From: Thioalkalivibrio halophilus
Lineage (GTDB): Bacteria; Pseudomonadota; Gammaproteobacteria; Ectothiorhodospirales; Ectothiorhodospiraceae
Direction: 5' to 3'
NCBI RefSeq assembly: GCF_001995255.1
Contig: NZ_MUZR01000055.1
Location: 1 to 37,015 of the forward strand
Length of the DNA: 37,015 nt
A model generated the notes under the pieces. The model saw nothing but the letters and a program-made list of their open reading frames with translations, searched no databases and was not told where the DNA came from. The position numbers and the translations under genes are program-made. Of this stretch, positions 1 through 4,770 are shown one piece after another; within the stretch, counting starts at the first letter, position 1; every line of letters starts with the position of its first letter.

Positions 1-423
1 ACATGTATACAAACAGCCGGTACCCGACACCCCCTGGATAGCCGCTGCGTTGTGCCCCCGCAGTTGAACCCCCGCGATCTTGGCCGACGAGCGCCCTGGC
101 CGGATCCAGTTGAACGAGCCGATCGGGGTTTTGGTGGAGACCGTGACACCCGATTTCGACAGGTTGAACTTGGCCGCATCCGAGCCATAGCGTCCGCGCA
201 GGATGAAGCGACCGTTCTGGAAGGCGACCTGAGTGTTTTTCGCCAGGCGCGTGGACACCCGTACGCCGTGGTTGGTGTTGCCGGTCAGGTTGATGCCGGC
301 GGCCCGCGTCTGCGCGCGCAGCGACAGCCCGCCGGTACGACTTGCCCGCAGATAGCGCCCGGTGTGCTCGATGCGCTTCTGGCGCCCGTCGCGGTCCTTT
401 TCGCCAACCTTCAGCAATGCCAT
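1..423 (-). CDS. Conserved-looking protein of unknown function, partial (C-terminus beyond left edge)
   Basis: An open frame of 141 codons starts at the ATG at 423 (reads MALLKVGEKDRDGR) and runs off the left edge with no stop. I do not recognise a named family. The sequence alternates basic, Gly- and Ser-rich beta-like stretches; around residues 93-102 it has a segment reading FNLSKSGVTVSTKT, which recalls the short beta-hairpin repeats of DUF4236-type proteins, but this is only a resemblance. No signal peptide and no membrane segment are visible. The ribosome site is weak. It is transcribed away from the AAA+ ATPase gene and lies directly downstream of a possible gene remnant on the same strand. 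I am fairly sure that the frame is coding because it stays open and has a plausible amino-acid composition; function is unknown. Confidence 0.6.
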   Translation of the reverse strand, partial: MALLKVGEKDRDGRQKRIEHTGRYLRASRTGGLSLRAQTRAAGINLTGNTNHGVRVSTRLAKNTQVAFQNGRFILRGRYGSDAAKFNLSKSGVTVSTKTPIGSFNWIRPGRSSAKIAGVQLRGHNAAAIQGVSGTGCLYTC

Positions 424-824
424 GGGCCGAGCGTACCACCCGCGCTTGGCATGAGCCGCCCAACGTTGCACCCTCTGATCGCGCGTTACTTCCGGGCGCC
501 TTTCGCCCTTTCGTTGGTGTCGGGTTCATCCAGGAGGTCGAATCCGGCGGCGGCCTCGTTGTCCATGCGGCGCTGCATGTTCTCCCGACGCATCTGCAGT
601 TCCTGCTCGTTGGGCTGTTCGTCTCGTTCCGTTTCTTCTTGGGCCAAAGGTTCCCCCAGATCCTGACGCTTGTTGATGGCGCTTTGTGCTGGCGCAACGT
701 AACCGCCGCTGCGGGCCCGAATTGGTCGTCTGTTTGTAGCGAGCTACCAAGGCGATTCCCGCGCGCGTCAGAAATCGTCGTCTGTTGGGTTGATGATTGC
801 ATTGCATCCCGACAGGAGACCGAC
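424..824. other. 400-bp interval between two divergent genes, with one possible gene remnant
   Basis: This stretch separates the unknown left-edge gene (minus) from the AAA+ ATPase (plus). The only coding-like content I see is the minus-strand frame at 486-743, listed separately. A short inverted repeat GTAGC-GA-GCTAC lies at 736-747. No convincing sigma-70 promoter was found by eye, although the ATPase gene must be transcribed from here. Confidence 0.5.
486..743 (-). pseudogene. Possible C-terminal gene remnant or very small protein
   Basis: A minus-strand frame is open from the codon after a TAG at 744-746 to a TAA at 486-488. It reads as a hydrophilic, Gln/Glu/Arg-rich tail containing QMRRENMQRRMDNEAAAGF and ending GARK. 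There is no ATG before 593; a TTG at 647 with a GGGGGA upstream could start a 53-residue protein, and the ATG at 593 would give only 35 residues. The composition looks like the charged C-terminus of a longer protein whose 5' part was lost, perhaps when the neighbouring AAA+ gene arrived. It could equally be chance. It sits 63 bp upstream of the left-edge gene in the same direction. Confidence 0.25.
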
Positions 825-2936
825 GTGGGCGGAGTAACTCGGATCGACCGGAGGCACAACGACGATATGGCGGAGATGGAACTGCTCATTCGACTGTGGT
901 GTCTGCGCATCCTGGATGACCTGAAGACCCATGCAAATGTGTCGTGGTCTGACCTCCCTCCATCTGTGCGGACCGCGTGTGGGCTGGAAGGCGAAGGGCC
1001 TTCGGATGCGTTGGGCACAGAGGAAGAGTCGACAATCGAGAGCCGCATTCGGGAGCTTCTGGACCACGGTGTATCCGACGATTTTCCCGAACCCATGCGG
1101 ACCAACCTGGCGAGGCTGAGCAGACGAGTCGGCCTTGAGGCGGTTGAAGAACGGGTGTTGGGCGCGATTGCGCTGATCCATCTCAGTAGTGATCTGTACG
1201 AAGCGCTCGACGTGTATCTCGATCGGCGTTCGGGCCGCAGCTTTTACATTCTGGGGCGTTTGCTCGACGTTCCGACCCGGGATGTCCGGGAGGCATTGGA
1301 TGAGAGGGGCCGCATCTGGGAAACCGGCTTGGTGTCCTCCGTTGGCCCCGGGCTCGGACGGGCAAACGAGTTGCAGCTCGAGCTTCGCGGCCGGATGGCC
1401 GAAGAGTTGTCGAAAGAGGTGTCGGAGGTCGAGGACCTGCTGCGTTGGTTCTACACACCCGCACCGGCGCCGGAAATCGCGGTGAGCGACATCCCCCACC
1501 TGGAAAAGGAAATGCACCGGTTGGTCCGGATCATCCGGGAGAGCCAGCAGCAGGGCGGCAAGGCGGTCAACATCCTTCTCTATGGAGGGCCTGGAACAGG
1601 CAAGACCGAGTTTGTGCGGCTCCTGGCTCAAGAGCTCGGCGCGTCATTGGTGGAAGTGGCGCATTGCGAACCGAATGGCGAACCGATTGCTCCCCTGCAG
1701 CGGCTTCGCCGCTGGTCCCTGGCTCAGAACCTCTACGGAAAGCAAGGCAACGTGTTGCTGCTGTTCGATGACATGGACGATGTTTTCTCAGCGTCCGCCG
1801 ACCAGGGGCTCCCGGCCTGGTCGCGTGGGGGTGTCAGAGTCGGCAAGGCATGGATCAACTCGCGATTGGAAGCCGGTGTGGTACCCAGTATTTGGGTCGC
1901 CAATTCGACCAACCAGATGGATGCCGCATATCTGCGCCGCTTCACCTACGTCCGGGAGTTTCGATCCCCGGGCCCCACGACGCGGCGCGAAATGGTGCGG
2001 CGTTGTTTCGAAGGGGTCCCGGTATCGGCGGGATTCGAAGACTCCCTTGCACACCATCGCGCCGTCACTCCAGCGATCATGCGTCAGGTGGCGACTCTGG
2101 GCGGCATGGTGGACTCGGGTTCGGATGTGGCGATGACGGAGTCATTCCTCCGAGAGCAGATCGACCAACACCTCGGTGTGCAGGGATTTTCGGCCTTGCC
2201 TAAGGCGTCAGAGGAAACGCTCCCGTGGAAGCGCGAGGCCCTCGAGTCCAGCACTGACTTGGAGGAGTTGTTCGCGGGTCTTCAGCGCAGTGGCCGCGGG
2301 CGTCTCCTGCTTTATGGCCCACCGGGAACCGGAAAGACCGAGCTCGTCCGCGCATTGGCGCAGGAACTTGATGCCCCGTTGATCCTGAAGCGCGCATCCG
2401 ACCTGCTGGCCCAGTTTCTCGGACAGACCGAGGCCAACATCGCCGAGATGTTCGAGCAGGCGAGGGAATCGAACGCAGTGTTGTTCCTCGACGAGGCCGA
2501 CAGCTTTCTCACCGATCGGGACGGTGCTCGACATCGTTGGGAAGTCACCCAGACCAACGAACTCCTGACGCGCATGGAAGAGTTCCAGGGCATTTTCGTA
2601 TGCGCAACGAACGCGTTCGATCGACTCGATGCGGCCGTAATGCGGCGCTTCGACGCCAAAATCGAACTGCAATATCCGAATGCCGACCGGCGCTGGAGTC
2701 TGTTTTTGAACCTCTTGGCAGGGCTTGCCCTTGGCATGCCAGACTCCGCCGAGGCGCGTTGCTTGCGACAAAGGCTCGGGCGACTGGAGAACCTGGCCCC
2801 CGGCGATTTTGCGGTGCTGTTCCGGCGTGCCTGCAACCTCGGTCATCGTTTCGAACCGGAATCGCTCGTCGAGGCGCTGGAACGCGAGAGCGCTTCGAAA
2901 GACGGTGTCGCGGGAAGGAAATCAGGTTTTCTCTGA
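825..2936 (+). CDS. Tandem AAA+ ATPase (two ATPase modules), function unknown
   Basis: Predicted 703-residue cytosolic protein. I chose the GTG at 825 because an AGGAG lies at 814-818 with 6-bp spacing; ATGs at 867 and 876 are alternatives, and the longer open frame upstream has no coding character. Residues 1 to about 230 form an alpha-helical N-terminal region of no recognised family. AAA module 1 has Walker A GGPGTGKT at 254-261 and Walker B LLLFDD near 311-316, where the usual catalytic Glu is Asp. AAA module 2 has Walker A GPPGTGKT at 498-505, a canonical LFLDEAD Walker B near 553-559, and an arginine-finger-like MRRF at 606-609. Module 2 resembles the spastin/CDC48 class of AAA domains. 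The family suggests an oligomeric unfoldase or remodeler, but no substrate or partner is encoded beside it. It lies in an accessory region beside an IS element and a tRNA gene, so horizontal transfer and a role in an island function (for example defence) are possible but unproven. Confidence 0.85.
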   Translation: MGGVTRIDRRHNDDMAEMELLIRLWCLRILDDLKTHANVSWSDLPPSVRTACGLEGEGPSDALGTEEESTIESRIRELLDHGVSDDFPEPMRTNLARLSRRVGLEAVEERVLGAIALIHLSSDLYEALDVYLDRRSGRSFYILGRLLDVPTRDVREALDERGRIWETGLVSSVGPGLGRANELQLELRGRMAEELSKEVSEVEDLLRWFYTPAPAPEIAVSDIPHLEKEMHRLVRIIRESQQQGGKAVNILLYGGPGTGKTEFVRLLAQELGASLVEVAHCEPNGEPIAPLQRLRRWSLAQNLYGKQGNVLLLFDDMDDVFSASADQGLPAWSRGGVRVGKAWINSRLEAGVVPSIWVANSTNQMDAAYLRRFTYVREFRSPGPTTRREMVRRCFEGVPVSAGFEDSLAHHRAVTPAIMRQVATLGGMVDSGSDVAMTESFLREQIDQHLGVQGFSALPKASEETLPWKREALESSTDLEELFAGLQRSGRGRLLLYGPPGTGKTELVRALAQELDAPLILKRASDLLAQFLGQTEANIAEMFEQARESNAVLFLDEADSFLTDRDGARHRWEVTQTNELLTRMEEFQGIFVCATNAFDRLDAAVMRRFDAKIELQYPNADRRWSLFLNLLAGLALGMPDSAEARCLRQRLGRLENLAPGDFAVLFRRACNLGHRFEPESLVEALERESASKDGVAGRKSGFL

Positions 2937-3020: not shown

Positions 3021-4117
3021 TGTCAGGTCTCGCCTGGTCATATACCCATTTTCGAAACGAATCGGGGGCGTTCATGCTGCCAGGCCTTGAGGGTTTCCAC
3101 CGGGGTCCGATGGCCCAGCGCCTTCTGGCCGATGTGATGGTTGTACAGCCGCTGGTAGTGCCGCAGCGCCTCGTCCAGGTGCTGGCCGGAGTCGAAGTGG
3201 CGGGTCCGCAGCAGATCGGCGATGCGCCCGTTGAAGCGTTCGACCATGCCGTTGGTCTGGGGCCGCTTGGGCCGGATCAGGCGATGCTCGATCCCGTGTT
3301 CGACGCACAGCCGGTCGAAGGGGTGATGCCCCGTCGGCTCCCGCTCCCCGGTCGCCGCAAAGCGGTCGGTGAACTCCTTGCCGTTGTCGGTGACGAGGTG
3401 GGTGATATGGAACGGCGCTTTCTCGAGAAGCTTCTTCAGGAAGCCGCGCGCGGCCTCGGCGCTCTTGGTGCGCCGCACCTCCAGATAGACCCAACGGCTG
3501 GCCCGGTCGATGGCCACGAACAGGTAGCCCCGCGAGGCCTGATCCGCCATCTGCGGCAGGTACTTCACGTCCACATGCACAAAGCCCGGCACGTAGTCCT
3601 TGAACGGCTTGTGCGCCGGTTCCTCGGGTTCCCCGTCGCGTTCCCGCTGCAGGGCCCGCAGGTCGCCCACGCCGTGCCGGCGCAGGCAGCGCGCCAGCGC
3701 CGCCCGGCTGAGATCCGGGTTCAGGAACTCACGCGCCACGATCAGCAGGTCATCCAGCGACAGCAGGGCCACTTCCCGGACCTGGACCACGATCGCCTCC
3801 TGCTCCGGCGTCAGGGTCGTGTGCAGCCGCTTGGGGCAATGCGACCGATCTTCCACCTCCCGGCGGTAGCGCCACTTGCGCACGGTCATGCGGGTAATGC
3901 CGTAGCGCCGGGCCAGCTCGGGGTCGCTCACGCCCGGCGGCGCCTCCTGCAGCTCTCGCCGGATCTGAGGCGTGGTGCGCGCGTTCGAATGGATCGTCCT
4001 CGCCATGCTATCCGTCCTGCGTGGAGCCGTCGCACACGATACTCAGCCACTCTCGTGCACGAAACAGGGGTGCCTTCTCGTGCGGTATAGAATCATCCGT
4101 TACCCAACAAGTAGACA
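3021..4117. mobile_element. IS481-family insertion sequence, about 1.1 kb
   Basis: A single intact transposase gene fills the element. I place the ends at 5'-TGTCAGG (3021) and the inverted TGTCTAC reading inward from 4117, since IS481-type elements begin with TGT and these positions flank the transposase at suitable distances (17 bp beyond the stop, 111 bp before the start). Beyond the shared TGTC the two ends are only weakly similar and I see no convincing direct target duplication (flanks CTAAT on the left, GGTAG on the right). Either the boundaries are off by a few bases or the flanks have rearranged since insertion. Confidence 0.6.
3038..4006 (-). CDS. IS481-family DDE transposase
   Basis: Complete 322-residue transposase that catalyses cut-and-paste or copy-type movement of the surrounding element. 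An N-terminal helix-turn-helix at about residues 24-48 (SDPELARRYGITRMTVRKW) should bind the element ends. The rve-type integrase core follows, with the catalytic acids visible as D146 (in HVDVKYL), D207 (in VTDNGKEF) and E256 (in GMVERFNGR). The C-terminal segment is typical of IS481/IS3-like enzymes. There is no frameshift or internal stop, so it may be active. The start ATG at 4006 has AGGACGGA upstream. It is the only gene in the element. The family call is strong; the assignment to a particular IS name would need a database comparison. Confidence 0.9.
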   Translation of the reverse strand: MARTIHSNARTTPQIRRELQEAPPGVSDPELARRYGITRMTVRKWRYRREVEDRSHCPKRLHTTLTPEQEAIVVQVREVALLSLDDLLIVAREFLNPDLSRAALARCLRRHGVGDLRALQRERDGEPEEPAHKPFKDYVPGFVHVDVKYLPQMADQASRGYLFVAIDRASRWVYLEVRRTKSAEAARGFLKKLLEKAPFHITHLVTDNGKEFTDRFAATGEREPTGHHPFDRLCVEHGIEHRLIRPKRPQTNGMVERFNGRIADLLRTRHFDSGQHLDEALRHYQRLYNHHIGQKALGHRTPVETLKAWQHERPRFVSKMGI

Positions 4118-4153
4118 GGTAGGTGTAGCTCATATAGCCTCCAAAGCGACTTT

Positions 4154-4253
4154 CTGGGTGAAGTTTGTCCTCGCAGGGTGGGTTTATGCCCTTCTGAATG
4201 ACAATTTAGAACCCAGAATGACGACTGTCAAGGCAGAATGTCATTCAGAATGA
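4154..4253 (+). repeat. Five-unit array of a 9-bp motif phased at exactly 20 bp
   Basis: The motif C-W-G-R-R-T-G recurs at 4154 (CTGGGTGAA), 4174 (CAGGGTGGG), 4194 (CTGAATGAC), 4214 (CAGAATGAC) and 4234 (CAGAATGTC), each start 20 bp after the previous one, so all sites face the same side of the helix about two turns apart. A further CAGAATGA begins at 4246. The array fills the space between the right end of the IS481 element and the ribosome site of the small Xre-type gene. Phased arrays like this occur at the ends of Tn7-, Mu- and IS21-type transposons (transposase binding sites) and as multi-site operators or iterons. Which of these applies here is not shown by the sequence. Confidence 0.6.
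4192..4250. repeat. Perfect 12-bp inverted repeat upstream of the Xre-type gene
   Basis: TTCTGAATGACA at 4192-4203 is exactly complementary to TGTCATTCAGAA at 4239-4250, with 35 bp between. It overlaps the phased array. It could be a regulator binding pair or part of a transposon terminus. The second arm ends 19 bp before the ATG of the downstream gene, a position suited to autoregulation. Confidence 0.6.
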
Positions 4254-4269
4254 AAAAAGGTCGCCCACG

Positions 4270-4491
4270 ATGATCCGATGTCACCTGTCGACCCTTATGG
4301 GAAAGCGGAAAATGAAGATCATGGATGTCGCCCGCGCCACCGGGCTACATCGCAATACGGTTTCCCTCCTCTACAAGGAGGAAGCCGTTCGCATCGAGAT
4401 CGACGCCATGGACAAGCTTTGCGAGCTGTTCAACTGCTCGGTGGGCGAACTCTTCGAATACACCCCGGAAGGGGATGGCGAAACACAGTGA
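4270..4491 (+). CDS. Small Xre/Cro-type helix-turn-helix regulator
   Basis: Predicted 73-residue DNA-binding protein. The whole length is one Cro/C1-type HTH domain: helices around IMDVARATGLHRNTVSLLY (residues 17-35) followed by the conserved MDKLCELFNCSVGELFEY segment (residues 47-64) typical of the small YozG-like regulators. An AAAGG at 4256-4260 lies 9 bp before the ATG; in-frame ATGs at 4297 and 4312 would trim a non-conserved N-terminus. It lies directly downstream of the phased repeat array and inverted repeat, which may be its own operator. The context (IS element, tRNA gene) suits a regulator carried by a mobile element. Regulatory target unknown. Confidence 0.75.
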   Translation: MIRCHLSTLMGKRKMKIMDVARATGLHRNTVSLLYKEEAVRIEIDAMDKLCELFNCSVGELFEYTPEGDGETQ

Positions 4492-4662
4492 CCACGTTCC
4501 CGGCACCGAAGCGCGGAACAGGTCCTGACGGAAGGGGAGTTATCTCGGCGGTGGCCACGCACGATGGCGCGGCTGCACGAAACGGTGGGAGACCTTCAGC
4601 AAAGCCCTGGGCACCGAATGGACACGGCGTGGGCACGAGGTGGGCACGGTGCCCAAACGAGA

Positions 4663-4693: not shown

Positions 4694-4770
4694 TGGTGGC
4701 TACGCCCTGATTCGAACAGGGGACCCCATCATTATGAGTGATGTGCTCTAACCAGCTGAGCTACGTAGCC
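4694..4770 (-). tRNA. tRNA-Met (CAT), elongator type
   Basis: The 77-nt gene folds as a full cloverleaf. The acceptor stem is GGCTACG/CGTAGCC, the anticodon arm is CATCA-CTCATAA-TGATG with anticodon CAT, the T arm contains GTTCGAATC, and CCA is encoded. The fully paired first base pair (G1-C72) and close match to the enterobacterial elongator gene mark it as elongator rather than initiator tRNA. It is preceded by a good promoter and followed by a terminator, so it is a single-gene unit. Its 3' end borders the accessory DNA to the left. Confidence 0.95.

Follow-up and report, generated by a model that had tools for sequence, protein, structure and literature searches.

The repeated sites at positions 4154-4253 of a Thioalkalivibrio halophilus contig very probably belong to an operator region, lying between the gene of a small HTH_26 repressor (xre) and the divergent excisionase-integrase (xis-int) operon of an island, here placed by a tRNA-Met gene. 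Judged from sequence, Xre most likely binds this region and represses both its own gene and xis-int. The window, a 37,015-nucleotide stretch that is one entire contig of a 97-contig genome, holds a decayed remnant, not an intact member, of such an Xre-xis-int island control region.

An earlier note on this DNA had described five copies of CNGRRTG (4154, 4174, 4194, 4214 and 4234) in exact 20-bp steps, together with a 12-bp inverted repeat. Both are present in the sequence, the inverted repeat at 4192-4203 and 4239-4250. A sixth copy of the motif lies at 4246 and is overlapped by a minus-strand copy at 4242, giving CATTCAGAATG. The stretch 4090-4500 is single-copy in its own genome. The intergenic regions of related loci have in common the dyad TGYCATYYTRRATGRCA, mostly two per region and most often 52 bp apart. 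Two such dyads precede xre in the window, with centres at 4195 and 4247. O2 (TGCCCTTCTGAATGACA, 4187-4203) includes the 4194 site and lies over the start of the predicted xis-int promoter, and O3 (TGTCATTCAGAATGAAA, 4239-4255) follows 52 bp away, immediately upstream of xre. A forward-strand half-site, CAGAATG (4214-4220), stands at +20 from O2 and is found in 7/8 relatives, and the weak distal site O1 (4147-4163, the 4154 site) has an offset of -40 and a local matrix score of 1.6.

Conservation across eight relative loci is uneven. Both half-sites at 4194 are kept in 8/8, and the 4246 dyad keeps one half in 7/8 and the other in 6/8. The -40 half-site (4154) is found in four of the eight; at -20 (4174) none has a half-site in the orientation first described and five have the opposite one; the +40 site (4234) is kept in a single locus. 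In the window, the half-site pattern that we applied is not matched by the left half of O2, nor by the sites at 4154 and 4174 (GGGTG). Across these loci the predicted operator keeps the geometry -40, 0, +20 and +52, in which the 52-bp step is the firm one. The strict five-site 20-bp phasing, which had been read as a co-operative array, is not kept in the eight homologous loci compared, and for this reason we drop five-site co-operativity in favour of the 52-bp dyad pair.

We compared the best dyad pairs at distances of 15-79 bp in 14 regions, including the window. The best pair stood at exactly 52 bp in eight of them (window, L004, L021, L023, L025, L032, L034 and L045), a 52-bp pair was tied for best in L003 and L024, and the best pair was at 53 bp in L054; it was elsewhere or weak in L020, L039 and L058, with other spacings in L020 and L039. 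Pair scores at any distance of 17-79 bp reached p≤0.005 in 11/14 xis-linked loci versus 4/42 unlinked loci (200 composition shuffles per locus), values that are not strict probabilities because the shuffles keep base composition only and the loci are related. Of 57 loci taken, L040 was too short, leaving 56 (14 + 42), and the 42 unlinked loci include L134 and L022, whose upstream stretches were mis-cut. The four unlinked loci with a significant pair are the window, L020 (where an IS1595 transposase interrupts xis), L024 and L039; no xis was seen at L024 or L039 despite their dyads.

The dyad consensus had been read by eye from the same loci, so the best-pair and shuffle tests are partly circular. 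A scan with a matrix built without the window (18 sites from nine other loci) is the fair test, since the consensus came from the compared loci. Its top two sites in the 37-kb window were centred at 4247 (26.7 bits) and 4195 (20.4 bits), and the next-best site outside the array scored 10.2 bits. Among five xis-linked loci outside the matrix, L138 has a pair at 51 bp, L133 has O2 only, and dyads were not found in L058, L135 and L144. The two-dyad 52-bp pattern with ≤3 mismatches matched 1/369 class genomes (the window itself, on both strands because the pattern is palindromic), and the reversed control pattern matched none of the 369. The pattern is specific but insensitive, as it missed genome G051, where alignment shows the operator (L004). 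We did not recognise this operator in the literature, judged by titles and abstract openings with mainly open-access coverage.

In a subset of relatives, xre stands head to head with an excisionase-like gene of ~80 aa and a tyrosine integrase gene of ~400 aa. This divergent xis-like gene and integrase lie upstream of xre in L003, L004, L021, L023, L025, L032, L034, L045, L054 and L058; L007, L009, L010, L011, L016 and L019 have the same xis-int order with a more distant xre. The small protein is conserved (69% mean column identity over 10 sequences). It had no Pfam or NCBIfam match, its PHROG excisionase hits were not significant (E 0.08 and 0.19), a PDB profile search gave one match at E 0.081, and its structure model was poor (pLDDT 57). 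We named the gene xis from its position, and its product is a putative excisionase. The two integrases scanned (L023 and L102) carry PF12167 and PF00589.

An HD-domain protein with a TraI_2 match comes after int in several loci. Restriction-type genes occur near int in both islands that were checked: L095 has type IIG and type IV genes, and L102 has type I genes and a PD-Lambda-2_B-like protein; these genes may lie inside the islands. One L023 gene had no match among the defence models. Near the G051 island, translations of L103 16674-18631 contain MRPWRNAKEF and its reverse-strand reading several times over, and this stretch looks like a CRISPR array.

A sigma-70-like xis-int promoter is predicted on the reverse strand (4203-4231): TTGACA (4231-4226), a 17-bp spacer and TAAATT (4208-4203), with 10/12 consensus bases. 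Its -10 element falls at +13 to +8 from the O2 centre. The same -10 offset is best in six of nine loci and second best in one, and lies outside the two best in L032 and L045. O2 overlaps this predicted promoter in the window and would cover the -10 edge and the start of xis-int transcription; the xre promoter would lie at O3.

On the far side of xre, a tRNA-Met(CAT) gene was found by ARAGORN on the reverse strand (4694-4770, 3' end at 4694), and we regard it as a possible attachment gene. Between xre and this gene are four forward-strand TGGRCAC repeats in exact 11-bp steps (4608, 4619, 4630 and 4641), followed by an inverted GTGCCCA at 4649 (4608-4655 in all). Lambda is the model for reading such repeats as integrase arm sites, and by analogy these are probably arm-type sites. 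The window's count of TGGRCAC-type words was reached by 5/300 shuffles. Among seven other regions, L004, L095, L096 and L104 hold at least four copies (both strands) of TGGTCCC/GGTCCC- or GGTCACA-type words (2-9/300 shuffles), L020 has AT-rich words only, and L003 and L097 have no word three times.

A convergent tRNA gene lies just past xre in L003, L004, L005, L006, L057 (the same place as L006, judged by contig) and L020 among 41 loci scanned. Within the ten close xis-linked loci, two have a convergent tRNA (L003 and L004), L054 has one pointing the opposite way, and no tRNA is present in the available stretch of the other seven. The same tRNA-Met is adjoined by xre relatives of 32-36% identity, accompanied by xis and int, in G012 and G021, and by a truncated close xre relative in G026. 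Judged by eye, G004, G011 and G018 have remnants at this tRNA-Met, whereas in several other genomes a conserved gene takes up this position.

We found no second copy of the tRNA-Met 3' end in the window (14-28 nt tried), and no clear far att end or long second tRNA copy in six relative islands (15-57 kb searched each). In G002, an xre with a broken frame lies beside tRNA-Arg, and a 22-nt partial copy of the tRNA-Arg 3' end (L104 8361-8382) sits ~160 bp past the tRNA, between it and xre; this copy looks like an att repeat. Contig C62 carries a 79% relative of the gene that adjoins tRNA-Met in other genomes, a candidate native left neighbour. The 10,234 bases examined there contain no tRNA-Met fragment of at least 15 nt, and the island's other end was not obtained.

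The xre gene itself (4270-4491, forward strand) is an intact open frame encoding a 73-aa regulator of the HTH_26 family (PF13443, E 9.9e-21; 74.2 bits against a cut-off of 22). A protein search returned 41 loci among the genome contigs, and the protein also matched in 14/58 relatives (own genome included). With the L102 relative as the query, 13/369 class genomes (own included) matched at 1e-15. The viral scan gave 2 distant loci, and matches came from 24 phage records, all below 60% identity, and 256 plasmids.

In the recognition helix, residue 29 is Asn in 13/15 loci with dyads (p≤0.005) versus 4/37 without them (Fisher p 3e-7, uncorrected for kinship among these related loci). Left out of this comparison were L134 and L022 (mis-cut) and L057 and L060 (truncated genes). 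Asn29 occurs without dyads in L137 (frame broken), L042, L141 (shuffle p 0.01) and L056, and dyads occur without Asn29 in L024 and L039. This co-variation points to Xre as the protein that would read the dyads. It is improbable that the repeats are instead bound by the excisionase or integrase, as recombination sites near one att end. Excisionases bind repeated sites and these repeats do lie inside an integrative element, but L058, L135 and L144 have related xis and int genes, a different Xre helix (Gly at residue 29) and no dyads, which favours Xre over Xis or Int as the dyad reader. Moreover, O2 lies over the predicted xis promoter, and the separate 11-bp array by the tRNA suits an integrase better.

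We also observed GCGCA boxes in the 60 bp upstream of xre in relatives whose helix reads NRS, which may be a different candidate operator. Seventeen relatives (L026-L059) were chosen by eye for their different upstream sequence; a box lies ≤60 bp from xre in 15 of them, and all have Ser at residue 29. GCGCA is also found in two dyad loci, L004 and L039.

By itself, the 20-bp phasing does not exceed what chance would give in the window. The CNGRRTG motif had been fitted to the five sites themselves, and they are its only five-copy run in the 37-kb window (spacings 7-44 tried). When stacks of five 7-bp sites were scored at spacings of 8-40, the best one at spacing 20 reached 29/35, and spacings 11, 12, 15, 27, 30 and 33 equally reached this score; the spacing-11 stack is the TGGRCAC array. 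With stacks of the same quality at six other spacings, the phasing alone proves little. These stacks, and the lack of conservation of two of the five sites, speak for a pattern produced by chance. However, relatives retain both dyads and the +20 half-site, and the window-free matrix recovered the dyads, so we consider the chance reading very improbable. Conservation speaks against chance for 4194, 4214 and 4246; chance may stand for 4174 and 4234.

The adjoining insertion sequence that had been noted is indeed present. It is an IS481-family element on the reverse strand (3021-4109, ends TGTCAGG...CCCAACA, placed by eye from other copies in the genus) with a transposase ORF at 3038-4006 (NF033577, E 1.9e-72). 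However, the array is not its end: IS481 matches in 30 genus genomes, the window itself excepted, end at window position 4118 or earlier, before the array. No target-site duplication was seen by eye at the window element. Among six other copies with both ends visible, a 6-bp duplication was read by eye in four (L110, L114, L115 and L116) and in neither L113 nor L118, and its absence here is weak evidence because two of these six copies also lack one.

Adjoining the element, on the reverse strand, GGAGG is followed by an xis remnant, MSYTYLST (4110-4133), that is cut by the IS; the xis of L010 and L011 begins MSYTYLTTEGLAERI. The distance from the xis start to xre is 137 bp in the window and 122-180 bp in relatives. 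The 37-kb window gave no match to xis or to an integrase; eight xis codons remain there in place of the intact xis and integrase that diverge from xre in relatives. Insertion of the IS with a deletion would be the simplest history. In an Alteromonadaceae relative (L020 5488-5880, reverse strand), an xis-like start enters an IS1595-family transposase after ~14 codons; here too, xis seems to have been lost to an IS.

The suggestion that the array is the surviving piece of a lost mobile element holds in spirit; the element would be of the tyrosine-integrase type, as xis and int lie beside the array in relatives. The end of a Tn7/Mu/IS21-type transposon, with transposase bound along one face of the DNA, is an extremely improbable source. 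Such-looking arrays occur at the ends of these transposons, and the repeated sites here adjoin an IS element, but that element is an IS481 that stops at 4109, the IS matches of relatives do not enter the array, the homologous sites sit between xis-int and xre, and just part of the five sites is kept; we set this candidate aside on position. The repeats are almost certainly not replication-origin iterons: although they are direct repeats about two helical turns apart and the gene of a KfrA_N protein (plasmid replication region) lies four genes off in one relative (L023), there are two strong sites only, and their position between the regulator gene and xis in relatives led us to set iterons aside.

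The remaining proposal of the earlier note, an operator of the Xre regulator, gains support from sites that recur before related xre genes, track linkage to xis-int and co-vary with the recognition helix. In the switch that we propose, Xre, probably as one dimer per dyad, would occupy O2, where the xis-int promoter has its -10 edge and start, and O3, which immediately precedes xre. Excision would then stay off and synthesis of Xre would be limited. The weaker half-sites at -40, -20 and +20 may raise occupancy. The 52 bp from O2 to O3 correspond to about five helical turns, so bound dimers would lie on one face and could touch. The IS481 insertion, probably with a deletion, would have taken xis beyond its first eight codons and the whole integrase gene, leaving behind the operator, the repressor gene and the arm sites as a remnant.

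To the left of IS481, an 864-aa AAA+ ATPase (342-2936, forward strand) resembles IetA (best model E 3.1e-45) and is possible island cargo. This IetA-like, anti-phage-type ATPase has a patchy distribution (8/58 genomes, own included). An overlapping upstream ORF (52-666) had no family match in three libraries.

Lambda-like divergent repressor/operator switches are typical of temperate phages and integrative elements. The likeness to them lies in the head-to-head arrangement of a small HTH repressor gene and the genes that it would control, and in several helically phased operator dyads, weak and strong, over both promoters. Unlike in those switches, the controlled operon here would be xis-int itself, with two dyads mostly 52 bp apart, and the repressor, at 73 aa, has no room for the usual oligomerisation or RecA-sensing domain. 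In the passage of PMC8138268 that treats them, PF12167 integrases are placed in the IntBPP-1 subgroup and the members named are phages. The L023 and L102 integrases resemble that group by their PF12167 arm-binding domain, whereas the HD/TraI_2 protein after int in several loci and the restriction-type genes near int in L095 and L102 set the present islands apart from what that passage describes. The control of ICE excision by recombination directionality factors such as RdfS (PMC11963761) similarly links excision to a tyrosine integrase and a small protein that binds DNA; the control that we propose here would instead be exerted by an HTH_26 repressor of the xis-int promoter. The locus seems to be a new case of a well-known type of switch and not an unknown transposon's end.

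An orphan repressor and operator might persist because they still work, with Xre silencing the xis-int operons of related incoming islands and guarding the tRNA-Met site. We regard this as unlikely. If true, the locked island would be a resident immunity device, and islands would repeatedly be domesticated by losing xis to one IS or another (IS481 here, IS1595 in L020). Read as an Xre operator, the odd set of repeats becomes a switch open to testing, in which the operator sites, a promoter, a candidate regulator and a candidate residue for specificity are named. Such islands can also be flagged by the dyad pair, including decayed copies without an integrase that integrase-based searches would miss.
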